From positions 1-34,096 of the forward strand of contig JBCCUP010000003.1 of assembly GCA_039196715.1 (NCBI GenBank): a DNA stretch of 34,096 bases, written 5' to 3'. Position 1 is the first letter of the stretch. The number at the start of each line of letters is the position of its first letter. The position numbers and the translations under genes were made by a program. This document shows, one piece after another, positions 6,964 to 34,096 of this stretch. The notes below the pieces were generated by a model that did not search any database, was not told the DNA's origin, and saw only the letters and a list, made by a program, of their open reading frames with translations. This stretch comes from Pseudomonadota bacterium. Its GTDB lineage: Bacteria > Pseudomonadota > Gammaproteobacteria > CALCKW01.

Positions 6964-9900
6964 TCAGCCGGCGACCGGTTGCAGCAACTCGATGACCTGC
7001 TCCTCGGTCAACTCGGTTGGCAGGGCGTCACCCTGCTCCACCAGGCCGGTGGCGAGCGCCCGTTTTCGCGCCTGGAGCTCGAGGATTTTTTCCTCCACCG
7101 TCGAGGAGGCGATCAATCTGTACACAAACACCGTTTGCGTCTGACCGATGCGGTGTGCCCGGTCGATCGCCTGTTGCTCGGCGGCCGGGTTCCACCAGGG
7201 GTCGAACAACACCACGGTGTCCGCCCGCGTCAGGTTCAAGCCCACACCGCCGGCCTTCAGGCTGATCAGGAACACCCCGACCTCGCCGGACTGGAAGCGG
7301 TCGATCAACTCCTCCCGGCGGCGACTGCGTCCGGTGAGGCTGACGAAATCGATCTGCCGCTCGCGCAGGGCGTCGCCGATCAGGTCGAGCATCGAGGCGA
7401 ACTGCGAGAAGACCAGCACGCTGCGTTTTTCCGCCTGCAGCGTTTCGACCAGTTCGAGCAAGTGCTCGAGCTTGGCTGACCCGGCCGCATCGCGCTCACC
7501 GTAGCTCGGCGGCAGCAAGCGTGGGTCACAGCACGCCTGGCGCAGTTTCAGCAAGGCATCGAGCACCATGATCTGGCTGCCGGCGAGCCCCCGGCTGAAC
7601 AAGGCGTCGCGCACCCGGCTCTCCATCAGCGCCCGCACCGCCTCGTACAGCGCCTTCTGCCTGGACGTCAACTCGAGCCGTTGCACCATCTCGTTTCGCG
7701 CCGGCAGGTCACGTGCGACGACGTCCTTGGTGCGACGCAGAATGAACGGCGCCGTTCGCCGTCGCAGTCGCGCCAGGGCGCCGGTGTCCGCCTGTTTTTC
7801 GATCGGGTCACGAAACAGCCGACGGAAGGTTTCCTTGTCCCCGAGAAACCCCGGCATCAGGAAGTCGAACAGCGCCCAGAGCTCACCGGTGTGGTTCTCG
7901 ACCGGTGTCCCGGAGAGGCAGAGCTTGCGCTCGGCGCGCAGCTCGCGCACGGCGCGGGCTGTCTTGCTGCCCGGGTTCTTGACCCACTGGGCCTCGTCCA
8001 GCACCACCAGCGCCCAGGGCTGGTCGGTCAGTGCATCGACGTCCCGCTGCACCACGGCGTAGCTCGCAATGGCAATGTCACACTCGTCGAGGGCTGCGTA
8101 GCTCGCCTTGCGGTCCGGCCCCGAGAGCACGACGACCGCAAACGAGGGCACGAAGGCTGCACACTCGCGTGCCCAGTTGCCGACCACGCTGGTCGGTGTG
8201 ACCACCAACACCGGCCCGCGCAACCGTCCGGCCTGGCGTTCGTCCAGGACATGGGCGAGGGTCTGAACGGTTTTGCCAAGGCCCATGTCATCCGCCAGGA
8301 TGCCGCCCATGCCGGTGTCGGCGAGGAAGGTCAGCCAGCCCAGTCCCTCGCGCTGGTAGGGCCGCAACTCGGCTTGAAACCCCGGCGGGGCATCCCGTTC
8401 GGCGGTGGCGGCATTGGCGCGCAGTGCCGTCGCGAGCTGCTGCAGGGCGGCTGGCGGCCGCCAGGGCCGCGTCGGCAGCTCGTTGAGCACGGCATCGAGT
8501 TGCGCGTAGCCAGCGCGCGGCAGTTGCATGCGCGTCTCGACATCGGCGAGCACGTCGGCCAGATTCACCACGAGGGGGCGTAGCACGCCCGCGGGGATAC
8601 GCAGTTCGCGCTGGTCCACCACACCCAGCGACACAGGCGCCCCGTCGTCGAGTTGCTCGAGTGGCTCGGTGCGCAGGCCGTGCTGCTGCAACCAACGCGC
8701 CAGCAGCGGCAACAGCGGGATCGACTCCTCGCCGACGTCCACGGTCAGGCCGACCGAGAACCACCCCGCCGCATCACCAGCCTGCTGAAAATCGACGTTC
8801 AGGTCGACAATGTCGTGCCGTTCGAAGCGAAGCTCGTCGGGCAGCTCAACCCGCCAGCCCTGCTCGATGAGCTTGGGCACCGAGACGGTCGAGAACTCGA
8901 CCCAGCCGGGGTGATCCGCCCAGACCGGGGGTTGCGCGTGCAGCGGCACGAACACCGCCGGGGTGTCAAACACCGGGGCACTGTCGGTGTCCCGCAGGTG
9001 CGCTGCCACGTCCTCGGCATCGAGCAGGCGCCCGTCGGGCAACACCAGCGAGAGGTCCGCGTGGTCGAGCGCATCGCGCAGCCAGGCAATCTCGGCCTCG
9101 CGGTCGCGCGCCTGCCAACGGCGTTTGTCCGGGTCGTAGCTGCGTTCCCGATCGACCTGCAACGGCAAGCTGCCGATCGGGTAATCGACGGTGGCGTGCA
9201 GCGCGTACCCCCGACCGGGTTCACTGCGGGCGACGAGGGCAGCGCGGCTGGCCCGCCCCGGCAGGGTTTCGGCGTCCCGTGCCTGCGCGGAGAGCGCGAG
9301 GACGAGCTCGTTGCGACAGATGTTCGGGATCTGCGCTTCGACCAGGCGCCGCTGGTCCGGGTCGAGCAACGGCAACTGCATGATGTCCTGTACGTTGCGC
9401 TCGGTGAGGCTTGTTCGCACCGGGCCCACGCGCCCGGCGAGCCGGTCGACGTACCAGAAGCCGTTGTCGCTGCGCACCAGCCTCAAACGCTCGCCGAGCG
9501 CCGCACCACCGAGTTTCAGGCCGAGCCGACCGCCGGCGTCCGAGACCCACGCCGGTTCCAGGGTCCGCACCCCGCCGTCGACCAACGGCCGACCGGCGTC
9601 GTCGATTTCACCGATGCCGAGCGCGAGCAGGCGCCGCAGCACCGTGGCCACCAGTGGCGGCGGCAGGCGGCAATCGAGCTGGCGGCTGTTGTAGAGGCTG
9701 CCCTGCAAGCTGATGAAGAGATCGAGCAGCTGCAGCTGCTCCTCGGGCAGCTCGGTGTCCAGAGGCCGCGCCAACGCGAGCTTCTTGCCGCGGCTCCATG
9801 CGCCGCTCTGCAAGCGGGAGCAGACGCGACCGGAGATGCGAACGGCGACGATGGCACTGCCCGGTTCGAGCGACAGCGCAAACTTGAGCGTGGCACGCGC

Positions 9901-28979: not shown

Positions 28980-29231
28980 TCAGTCACTCGGGGCGTCGGC
29001 CACATCGCTGTCGTCGATCGGCATCTTGATCGCGCGCTGCGGCACCACCGTGGAAATGGCGTGCTTGTAGACCATCTGGCTGACGCTGTTCTTGAGCAGC
29101 ACGACGAATTGGTCGAAGGACTCGATCTGGCCCTGAAGTTTGATCCCGTTGACCAGGTATATCGACACCGGCACGCGCTCGCGCCGCAAGGTGTTGAGAA
29201 AAGGTTCCTGCAGCGTATGACCCTTGGCCAT
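28980..29231 (-). CDS. hfq: RNA-binding protein Hfq
   Basis: 83 residues from ATG 29231, with GGAGAG upstream. The Sm1 motif is in [22 protein letters not shown] and the Sm2 motif in [10 protein letters not shown]; the start [18 protein letters not shown] is characteristic. It forms a ring that pairs small RNAs with mRNAs. The C-terminal tail after residue about 67 is short and acidic ([11 protein letters not shown]), fitting the tail type proposed to release RNA from the rim. First gene of the hfq-hflX-hflK-hflC block. Confidence 0.98.
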
Positions 29232-29379
29232 GGGGGATGACTCTCCGCTCGCGCACGGAGCCGGCCTCACGAGCGCGCTGGATGTTGTTATTCGAGGGGG
29301 AGCTGACCGGTTTTGCACGACGATATCAGGTGTGTAGGCAACACTCAACGGAGCGACGACAGGGCCCGCGCCCCATCGA

Positions 29380-29408
29380 ATTTTATTTTACGTTTACGTT
29401 AACGTAAA
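29380..29408 (-). promoter_or_regulatory. Candidate promoter for the hfq-hfl transcript
   Basis: On the minus strand TTTACG (29403-29408) and TAAAAT (29380-29385) are spaced by 17 nt; the -10 matches five of six positions. Transcription would start near 29373, giving a leader of about 140 nt before hfq. The -35 lies inside the palindrome at 29392-29409. The 265-nt gap to prpE shows no gene. Confidence 0.4.
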
Positions 29409-29409
29409 C
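29392..29409. promoter_or_regulatory. Perfect 18-bp palindromic operator between hfq and prpE
   Basis: GTTTACGTT at 29392-29400 and AACGTAAAC at 29401-29409 are exact reverse complements without a spacer. The site lies 87 nt before the prpE ATG and overlaps the candidate -35 of the hfq promoter. The ACGT-TA-ACGT core resembles sites described for MerR-family LiuR regulators of branched-chain amino acid and acyl-CoA catabolism in proteobacteria; that match is from memory and is inference. An AT-rich stretch in a GC-rich genome supports a regulatory role. Confidence 0.6.
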
Positions 29410-29496
29410 TTTGAGCCCTGCACGATGCCGCACCGCCCCACACCGGTGCAGAGCTGCGTATCATGGCGCAGCCATGCCACTCGGAGAGACTTGCCC

Positions 29497-31401
29497 ATGT
29501 CAGGGGAATTTGACCGCGTCTACACGCACGCCAGTGAACAGCCCGAGGCCTTCTGGGCCAAGGTGGGTGCCGCCCTGGTCTGGGATACACCGCCCACACG
29601 CGTGCTCGACGACAGCGACTCCCCGTTCAACCGCTGGTACCCCGACGGGCAACTCAACGCGTGCTTCAACACCCTCGACGTGCACGTCGACGCGGGTCAC
29701 GGCGACCGCACCGCCCTGATCCACGACAGCCCTGTCACCGACAGCGTGACACGCTACAGCTACCGTGACCTGCGCGACGCGGTCGCGACCCTCGCCGGCG
29801 CCCTCAGCGCGCGCGGAGTCGGCCCGGGCGACCGCGTGATCATCTACATGCCGATGATCCCGGAAGCCGCCATGGCCATGCTGGCCTGCGCCCGCATCGG
29901 CGCGATCCACTCGGTCGTGTTCGGCGGCTTTGCCGCCAACGAGCTGGCCGTGCGCATCGACGACGCCGAGCCCGCAGCGATCCTGACAGCGTCCTGCGGC
30001 ATCGAGGGTGCACGCGTGGTCGAGTACAAACCGCTGCTCGACAAGGCGATCGAGCTCGCCACCCACACACCCGCGTTCAACCTCATCCTGCAACGCCCTC
30101 AGTGCGCAGCGGCGATGCACGCCGGGCGCGACGTCGACTGGCAAGACGCGGTGGCAGCCGCCTCGCCGGTTGGCTGCACCCCCATGCCGGCCAACGCGCC
30201 GCTCTACATCCTCTACACCAGCGGCACCACCGGCCAGCCCAAAGGCGTTGTGCGCGACACCGCGGGCTACCTGGCCGCGCTCAAGTGGAGCATGAAACAC
30301 ATCTACGACATCGAACCGGGTGAGGTGTACTGGGCCGCGTCCGACGTCGGCTGGGTCGTTGGCCACTCGTACATCGTCTACGCGCCGCTGGCGAACGGCA
30401 ACACCACGGTGATGTACGAGGGCAAGCCGGTCGGCACACCGGACGCCGGCGCCTTCTGGCGGGTGATCAGCGACCACAAGGTGTCGAGTCTGTTCACCGC
30501 ACCGACCGCGTTCCGCGCGATCAAAAAGGAAGACCCGAACGGCGAACTGCTGGCGCACTACGACCTGTCGTCGTTGCGCAGCCTCTTCCTCGCTGGCGAG
30601 CGTTGCGACCCAGACACCTTGCACTGGGCCGAGCGACACCTGGAGGTGCCGGTGATAGACCATTGGTGGCAGACCGAAACCGGCTGGTCGATTGCGGCGA
30701 ATTGCATGGGCATCGAACACCTGCCGGTCGTGGCGGGCAGCCCGACGCGGCCCGTGCCGGGGTACCGACTCGAGGCGCTCGACGATGCCGGCAAGCCGGT
30801 TGCGCCCGGCGAGATCGGCGCGCTCGCCGTGCGCCTGCCCTTGCCGCCGGGTTCGTTCACCACACTCTGGAATGCCCCGGAACGCTACCGCTCGGCCTAC
30901 TTCGACACCTTTCCGGGCTACTACGAGACCGGTGACGCCGGCTACCTCGACGACAACGGCTATGTGTTCGTCATGGCCCGTACCGACGACGTGATCAACG
31001 TGGCCGGCCACCGCCTGTCCACGGGCCAAATGGAGGAGGTGCTGGCCGAGCACCCGGACGTTGCCGAGTGTGCCGTGCTCGGCGTGGCCGACACCCTCAA
31101 GGGGCAGTTGCCGCTCGGCTTGCTGGTGCTCAACGCCAACTGTGACCGCGCCCACGACGCCATCGTCGACGAGTGCGTGCAGCGTGTCCGCGAGACCATC
31201 GGCCCCGTTGCCGCCTTCAAATTGGCCACCGTGGTCCCGCGGCTGCCGAAGACCCGCTCGGGCAAGATCCTGCGGGGCACGGTGCGCTCGATCGCGGACG
31301 GTCGCGCGTGGAAGATGCCGGCCACGATCGATGACCCGGTGATCCTCGACGAAATCACCGGCGCCCTGAAAACCCTTGGCTACCCCCTCACCACGACTTG
31401 A
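29497..31401 (+). CDS. prpE: Propionate-CoA ligase
   Basis: 634 residues from ATG 29497, with GGAGAG 8 nt upstream; in-frame upstream codons to 29425 lack conservation. It is a member of the acyl-adenylate superfamily close to PrpE along its length: [23 protein letters not shown] near 125-147, P-loop [12 protein letters not shown] (about 247-258), [17 protein letters not shown], hinge [11 protein letters not shown], and the catalytic [10 protein letters not shown] lysine, which is the usual acetylation target. It activates propionate (perhaps also acetate) with ATP and CoA. First gene of the prpE-pccB-pccA operon. Confidence 0.9.
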
Positions 31402-31409
31402 GCGCTGAC

Positions 31410-32942
<1,533 letters not shown>

Positions 32943-32966
32943 GGCGTCGCGGCGGAGCAAATCGAA

Positions 32967-34096
32967 TGGCCAGTGTGTTCAAGAAAATCCTGATCGCCAA
33001 CCGCGGCGAAATCGCGTGCCGCATCGCACGCAGCTGCCGCAGGCTGGGTATCGCAACCGTCGCAATCTACTCGGACGCCGACGCGGACAGCCTGCACGTG
33101 AAACTGTGCGACGAAGCGGTGCACGTCGGCGGCAATGCGAGCAGCGACAGCTACCTGCGGATCGACCGCATCCTGGACGCGATCGCGCAGACGGGCGCCG
33201 AGGCCGTGCACCCGGGTTTCGGGTTCCTGTCCGAGAACAGCGAGTTCGCCGAAGCACTCGAGGCGGCCGGCGTGGTGTTCATCGGACCGGGGCAGCACGC
33301 CATCGCGGTCATGGGCGACAAGATCGAATCGAAGAAGCTCGCCGAAAGCGCCGGTGTCAACACGGTCCCCGGCCACCCCGACGCACTCGACTCGGCCGAA
33401 CAGGCCCGTGCGCTGGCGGAGCAGATCGGTTGCCCGGTGATGCTCAAGGCGTCGGCCGGCGGCGGTGGCAAGGGCATGCGCATCGCCTGGACCCTCGACG
33501 ATGTCATCGACGGTTTCACCAGTGCACAGAACGAGGCACGCAACGCCTTCGGAGACGACCGCGTTTTCATCGAGAAATACATCGAGGAACCGCGGCACAT
33601 CGAAATTCAGGTGCTCGCTGACACGCACGGCAACACGCTGTACCTGCAGGAACGCGAGTGTTCGATCCAGCGCCGTCACCAGAAAGTCATCGAGGAGGCC
33701 CCCTCGCCTTTTCTCGACGCCGCCACCCGGCAGGCGATGGGCGAGCAGGCTGTGGCCCTCGCCCGGGCCGTCGACTACCGGTCGGCCGGCACGGTGGAGT
33801 TCATCGTCGACAAACACCGCCAGTTCTATTTCCTCGAGATGAACACCCGGCTGCAGGTCGAACACCCGGTCACTGAAATGATCACCGGCCTCGATCTGGT
33901 GGAACAGATGATCCGCGTGGCCGCTGGCGAGCACCTCGCCATGCAGCAAAGCGACATCCCGATGAACGGCTGGTCTCTCGAGTGTCGCGTGTACGCCGAG
34001 GACCCGGACCGCAACTTCATGCCCTCGACCGGCCGCCTGAGTCGGTACGCCCCACCGGCCGAAAGCGACCGCGTGCGCGTCGACACCGGCGTAGAG
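32967..34096 (+). CDS. pccA: Propionyl-CoA carboxylase alpha subunit, biotin carboxylase part, 3' truncated by window edge
   Basis: 376 codons are present, running off the window. The ATG at 32967 has GGAG 9 nt upstream and follows pccB by 24 nt. The N-terminal biotin carboxylase domain is intact so far: [20 protein letters not shown] (8-27), [10 protein letters not shown] (81-90), the ATP-grasp loop [29 protein letters not shown] and the active-site [14 protein letters not shown]. The biotin carboxyl carrier part lies outside. Position after pccB and prpE supports propionyl-CoA as the substrate over acetyl-CoA or methylcrotonyl-CoA. Confidence 0.93.

Follow-up and report, generated by a model that had tools for sequence, protein, structure and literature searches.

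A perfect palindrome of 18 bp lies at positions 29392-29409 of the window, by which we mean the whole stretch of 34,096 nucleotides of gammaproteobacterial DNA analysed here, and very likely it belongs to an operator of the LiuR type within the promoter of prpE-pccB-pccA, where LiuR would most likely repress these genes until branched-chain amino acids are being broken down. The binding, repression and induction that we infer would run as follows. LiuR is a small protein of the MerR family whose gene lies at another place in the genome. It would sit on three ACGT steps lying between or over the -35 and -10 elements and would hold prpE-pccB-pccA down until the breakdown of branched-chain amino acids announces a supply of propionyl-CoA; at that point the genes for activating propionate and carboxylating propionyl-CoA would be switched on together with the rest of the pathway from isoleucine and valine to propionyl-CoA. 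A repressor role is suggested by passages of papers on Shewanella (PMC3223726) and Pseudomonas aeruginosa (PMC8871633), in which LiuR is called a repressor. The arrangement would place the activation of propionate and the carboxylation of propionyl-CoA under the regulator of isoleucine and valine breakdown, the source of that propionyl-CoA, both here and in at least one further genus of the class, and it offers a specific and easily tested operator whose motif is seen across the class.

The palindrome and its genomic setting

The palindrome, GTTTACGTTAACGTAAAC, is its own reverse complement, as the original prediction had stated, and does not extend to 20 bp, but the conserved unit proved to be a 22-bp site at 29387-29408 (TTTACGTTTACGTTAACGTAAA), of which the 18 bp are the right-hand part. 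This site consists of two overlapping 16-bp inverted repeats (29387-29402 and 29393-29408) set 6 bp apart, and it carries three ACGT steps with a spacing of 6 bp. It is located between two divergent genes. On the minus strand lies a gene at 28980-29231 (start at 29231) which we take to be hfq and which has homologues in 46 of the 56 genomes searched, and on the plus strand lies the target gene prpE (29497-31401, start at 29497), encoding a propionate/acetate-CoA ligase. In the NCBIfam search the best models for prpE were those of propionate--CoA ligase, both below their cut-offs (PRK10524, 714 bits against 955; TIGR02316, 688 bits against 827.4), followed by acetate--CoA ligase with 632 bits (cut-off 657). 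Next in the operon is a pccB-like carboxyltransferase subunit gene (31398-32942, plus strand; in-frame ATG at 31410), whose nearest model, TIGR01117 mmdA, scored 780 bits, below the cut-off of 998.8. It is followed by an open frame of 377 aa on the plus strand that runs off the window (32966-34096) and is presumably a pccA-like biotin carboxylase subunit gene, in keeping with the label of the original prediction.

Bare palindromicity of the 18-mer is weak evidence, as the window holds two perfect palindromes of at least 18 bp (at 9724 and 29392) against 0.53 expected per window from 60 first-order Markov sequences. The other one, GAGCAGCTGCAGCTGCTC at 9724-9741, lies in a stretch covered by long open frames and is probably due to chance. 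With up to three mismatches the 18-mer recurred nowhere else in the window except in the overlapping register 29386-29403, and 100 shuffles gave none; across the whole assembly of the window genome, hereafter G000 (4.95 Mb in 169 contigs, 96% complete), it was found here and at one other place, C26:56477-56500. The core of three ACGT steps was found at two places in G000; its reversed control had no match there. We regard the palindrome as more than a chance occurrence because of this single other near-match in the genome, the triple core whose reversed control is without matches, and the conservation of the site in both genus-mates that show the same gene pair.

Conservation and predicted regulon within the genus

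Three genus-mates, G001, G002 and G003, were compared with the window genome. In the two that show the pair, G002 and G003, hfq and prpE are again divergent with the site in between, its letters being TTTACGTTTACGTTAACGTAAG in G003 and TTGACGTTAACGTAAACGTAAA in G002. Loss of the palindrome from relatives with the same divergent pair, which the original prediction had named as grounds for rejecting it, was therefore not what we found. The intergenic region between hfq and prpE measures 265 bp in G000 and 501 bp in G002, and by eye the operator is what both clearly share. The 79%-complete assembly of G001 gives no test of the pair, as only a piece of prpE remains at the edge of a contig and no hfq match was obtained. 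When the prpE loci of relatives were inspected, the site was upstream of prpE in this genus only. Two Granulosicoccaceae contigs, L026 (3751-5001) and L034 (3738-5001), also have hfq near prpE, but with an intervening ORF that starts like a secreted protein; a site with up to three mismatches was not found in these two hfq-prpE regions.

The remaining copies of the motif point to the metabolism that the operator would serve. The second copy in G000, at C26:56477-56500, stops some 30 bp short of a thiolase gene, after which comes an acyl-CoA dehydrogenase gene, and in G003 the sites stand before a thiolase-acyl-CoA dehydrogenase pair and before prpE. G002 (93% complete) has the 16-mer with at most one mismatch at six places, every one in triple form and, as judged from the neighbouring genes, all at pathway genes or liuR: at liuR/icmF (contig C67), at acuI and mutA-mutB-meaB (C66), at an acyl-CoA ligase gene with transporter genes that look liv-like by eye (C9), at an acyl-CoA dehydrogenase gene with a short-chain dehydrogenase gene (C30) and at prpE (C18). 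In the family searches acuI and icmF of G002 scored above the NCBIfam cut-off; mutB, meaB, the ligase and the short-chain dehydrogenase were supported by Pfam, and the best model for mutA remained below its cut-off. These targets belong to the pathway that leads from isoleucine and valine through propionyl-CoA to methylmalonyl-CoA.

The triple core was the sole form of the motif that separated from its control, with 6 occurrences against 0 in G002 and 2 against 0 in G003, as in G000. The looser 16-mer was no commoner than its reversed control, neither at three mismatches in G000 (36 vs 59) nor at two mismatches in G002 (21 vs 35), G003 (4 vs 6) and G001 (0 vs 8), and the mask TTNACGTNNACGTNAA at one mismatch gave forward and control counts of 9 and 7 in G000, 2 and 8 in G001, 30 and 27 in G002 and 7 and 10 in G003. 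In G003 a match with two mismatches at C4:40015, surrounded by pilin-like genes, was put down to chance.

The LiuR-like regulator gene

The original prediction had called for a search for a MerR-family LiuR gene and had named the lack of such a regulator as a second ground for rejection; the window genome does have a LiuR-like one. Among its four MerR_1 proteins, the one encoded at L105:9152-9547 (131 aa; PF13411, 50.8 bits) is the LiuR-like MerR protein, with identities of 100% in G000, 77% in G001 and 64% in G002. Against NCBIfam no metal-sensor model reached its cut-off for this protein and no LiuR-named model was among the matches, and for this reason the orthology is based on pairwise identity and synteny. 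Judged by identity to its homologues, the genome encodes a LiuR-like MerR protein that we assign as the predicted LiuR orthologue. The G002 liuR gene adjoins a site and is divergent from icmF, with a gene of the enoyl-CoA hydratase/isomerase family (PF16113) on its other side. A protein with 48% identity to G002 LiuR is encoded on plasmid NZ_CP092285.1 of Marinobacter, at the head of an annotated operon with the motif upstream; it is followed by genes for isovaleryl-CoA dehydrogenase, carboxyltransferase, enoyl-CoA hydratase, carboxylase and HMG-CoA lyase, an order that equals the liuRABCDE layout as given in a passage of PMC8871633.

The motif was found in front of liuR in G002, in several other genomes of the class and in the Marinobacter and Vibrio campbellii records (L271, L272); it was not seen in the Aeromonas record L270 (54%), which holds the closest homologue region in the plasmid collection. 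The liuR promoters of G000 (L105, 9544-9660) and G001 (L226, 1285-1400, minus strand) carry the half-sites TTTACGT and ACGTMAA one base closer together than in the 16-mer, which is an unusual spacing. G003 keeps the site, yet the search of its assembly gave no LiuR gene. Its glgP gene, whose G000 counterpart neighbours liuR, is truncated at the end of a contig so that the part that would face liuR is missing, and the lack of liuR there probably reflects an assembly gap. When 56 genomes were searched both ways, LiuR (E <=1e-20) and the triple site occurred together in four, LiuR alone in G001, the site alone in G003 and neither in the other 50. Small ORFs of 112-147 aa also lie near liuR or icmF in G000 (L105, 9681-10124), G001 (L226, 1447-1884) and G002 (L222, 10017-10355); they look alike by eye (..FRPG..Y...), and the one of G000 had no Pfam match.

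Occurrence of the motif across the class

Outside the genus the motif keeps the same gene company. Among 369 genomes of the class ACGTTNACGTNAACGT gave 75 matches in 30 genomes, and the reversed motif gave 30 matches in 28; the figure of 75 is a column sum in which two matches in G145 overlap, and for G063 eight matches were counted, of which five are among the matches listed and one more is in L287. We took one site per genome and left out the three genus loci, which leaves 27 of the 30, and scored a site as positive when a gene of the reference set started within 700 bp and pointed away from it. The reference set was made of G000, G002 and Marinobacter genes, and it was chosen after the first neighbours had been seen and before the control was fetched. 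By this rule 19 of the 27 sites lie before genes of the branched-chain/propionyl pathway or liuR, as against 0 of 28 reversed-motif controls (Fisher p 8e-9). The enrichment at catabolic genes that the original prediction had proposed to scan for is thus present, and its reading of the palindrome as resembling LiuR-type sites for acyl-CoA catabolism is well supported by the presence of the motif at acyl-CoA and branched-chain promoters in the genus and the class, with a clean control.

Eight of the 27 sites had no pathway gene under the rule (L233, L237, L247, L250, L251, L254, L255 and L256). At L233 an icmF-like match starts past the 700-bp limit, and at L247, L254 and L256 the translations, read by eye, show genes that look related but are not in the reference set; L309-L316 are these same eight sites again and add nothing to the counts. 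Of 35 further listed sites, 27 are at pathway genes or liuR, a figure in which two sites repeat the first set (L243, L252) and five matches have 23-31% identity.

Targets resembling prpE were seen in a single genus outside that of the window, g93 of family f93, in the genomes G095 and G215. In G095 the prpE is 69% identical and has a MutB-like gene next to it, and in G215 the identity is 54% over the 113 residues present on the contig. Weak 'PrpE' matches at L301 and L303 (23-25% identity) were not counted as prpE targets. In 80 prpE stretches retrieved by similarity from other named genomes the 16-mer with up to two mismatches was found only in L061, about 2 kb beyond prpE; this near match, at 8927-8948, has one mismatch and is an overlapping pair. 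The motif is not a general feature of prpE, and most prpE genes lack the site.

Promoter architecture at prpE and the relation to hfq

We counted -10-like hexamers (at least 4/6) at a distance of 15-20 bp beyond the TTNACG arm at 45 sites, with the genus sites included and sites with targets on both sides excluded. They were present on the target side in 24 and on the other side in 11 (p 0.009), and this excess suggests that the operator often lies over the spacer of the target promoter. The top-scoring prpE promoter candidate overlaps the site in G000, G002 and G003, being TTTATT-17-TAAACT at 29382-29410 (plus strand) in the window. Its score was reached by 22 of 150 shuffles in G000, 23 of 150 in G003 and 6 of 150 in G002, which leaves the G000 and G003 candidates within shuffle range; the sigma-70 weights used are rough, and shuffles were compared on the best score per strand. 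If the arm of the site is taken as the -35, the prpE-ward -10 is weak in G000 (3/6) and G003 (2/6) and good in G002.

The original prediction had also held that the palindrome overlaps a candidate -35 of hfq and that the same regulator could alter hfq-hfl transcription. The overlap is true as letters, TTTACG-17-TAAAAT reading from 29408 down to 29380 on the minus strand with the operator supplying the -35 and the spacer. The regulatory claim found no support beyond adjacency. In its general form, one LiuR-bound operator would work in both directions, overlapping a second, upstream hfq promoter in the window organism, and acyl-CoA status would alter transcription of hfq-hflX-hflK-hflC; we hold this to be rather unlikely. 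On its side, TTTACG-17-TAAAAT has the best hfq-strand score in G000 (10.8, reached by 1 of 150 shuffles), the highest prpE-ward score in that genome being 7.8; a -10 in the direction of hfq matches 5/6 at the site in G000 and 4/6 in G003, and the divergent pair and the site are kept together in both relatives that show the pair. Against it, the -10 at the site falls to 2/6 in G002, leaving a good one in the window genome only, and the top hfq-strand candidate of G003, TTGAGA-17-TATGGT at 90 nt from the hfq start, is independent of the site (10.8; 0 of 150 shuffles). This candidate lines up by eye with TTGAGT-17-TATCGT at 29320-29348 (minus strand) in G000, which is 88 nt from the hfq start and scores 9.0, not the best on its strand; TTGAGT-17-TATTGT of G002 is similar, but it lies farther from hfq and does not rise above the shuffles (40 of 150). 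Beyond the genus, none of the 27 sampled and none of the 35 further sites had hfq within about 1.5 kb, and the general excess of -10 hexamers on the catabolic side described above speaks against this reading as well. Among the 52 other genomes, no contig carries an hfq match within 50 kb of the best match for prpE; 10 of the 56 genomes were without an hfq match. Overlap of an hfq promoter with the operator was thus not conserved among G000, G002 and G003, which speaks against a conserved overlap but has no bearing on one in G000. That LiuR controls hfq is a candidate idea for which there is modest support, most of it from G000 itself. Its fuller form, in which LiuR in this genus also gates the second upstream hfq-hflX-hflK-hflC promoter so that the supply of propionyl-CoA and branched-chain acyl-CoA would set the Hfq dose and loop with Hfq control of such catabolic mRNAs, we think quite improbable; if the hfq side were true, a metabolic regulator would set Hfq levels.

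Two further explanations concern the nature of the site itself. It might be the target of a TetR or GntR protein that also governs short-chain acyl-CoA metabolism, LiuR only having a similar motif; palindromes are used by several regulators of this metabolism. Shewanella is predicted, in a passage of PMC3223726, to use a GntR-family PrpR for propionate. Against this, several genomes have the same motif before liuR itself, and LiuR and the site co-occur; we consider another regulator very unlikely. That the palindrome is a chance or inert sequence, or else a bidirectional terminator or structural element, might be argued from the count of perfect 18-bp palindromes, which are not rare in the window, but the site is kept between the genes in relatives, triple cores are few in the genome, their company consists of pathway promoters, and as a stem the palindrome would be A+T-rich and without a loop; we give this reading hardly any credence. 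An argument from the TTG/TTT difference between the two arms was dropped as too slight. A predicted LiuR operator serving prpE-pccB-pccA remains the reading that we prefer.

Relation to known systems

Kazakov et al. 2009 is reportedly the founding comparative paper on the LiuR regulon. Our literature search, which did not take in the target lists of that paper, returned no paper naming both LiuR and prpE, and we make no claim of a first report. LiuR appears as a MerR-family regulon in Proteobacteria in the table row 'LiuR ... 103 (15)' of PMC5343134, and as a MerR repressor of isoleucine, leucine and valine genes of Shewanella in a passage of PMC3223726; an ILV box is mentioned for Rhodospirillum rubrum in part of PMC7238569. 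As in the LiuR regulon, the sites described here are palindromic, stand at promoters of liuR, isovaleryl-CoA dehydrogenase, thiolase and acyl-CoA dehydrogenase genes and go with a small MerR regulator. Unlike it, as set beside such descriptions, the site here is also found before prpE-pccBA and, in G002, before icmF, acuI and mutA-mutB-meaB. The prpE-pccBA operator is, on this comparison of sites and neighbouring genes, very likely a lineage extension of the known LiuR regulon.

Operons controlled by PrpR are another point of comparison. They likewise represent regulated propionate catabolism and include a PrpE-type ligase, but their route is that of methylcitrate, whereas here carboxylation leads to methylmalonyl-CoA. 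The regulator there is of another class, and the site here is common with branched-chain degradation. For propionate operons a passage of PMC3223726 describes PrpR as a Fis-family protein in Enterobacteria and as a predicted GntR-family protein in Shewanella. For P. aeruginosa, passages of PMC8871633 and PMC6235884 describe both Hfq/Crc and LiuR as acting on the liu genes, at translation and transcription, respectively. In that system the liu mRNAs are the target of Hfq, whereas the question here is that of LiuR acting on hfq, of which those passages give no case.

The hfq leader of the window also contains an AAC-rich element, AATAACAACATCC, at 29280-29292 on the minus strand. This element may be a site of the A-R-N type at which Hfq binds its own leader for autoregulation. 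It occurs in G003 as well, and runs that resemble it stand before hfq in L026, L187 and L192.
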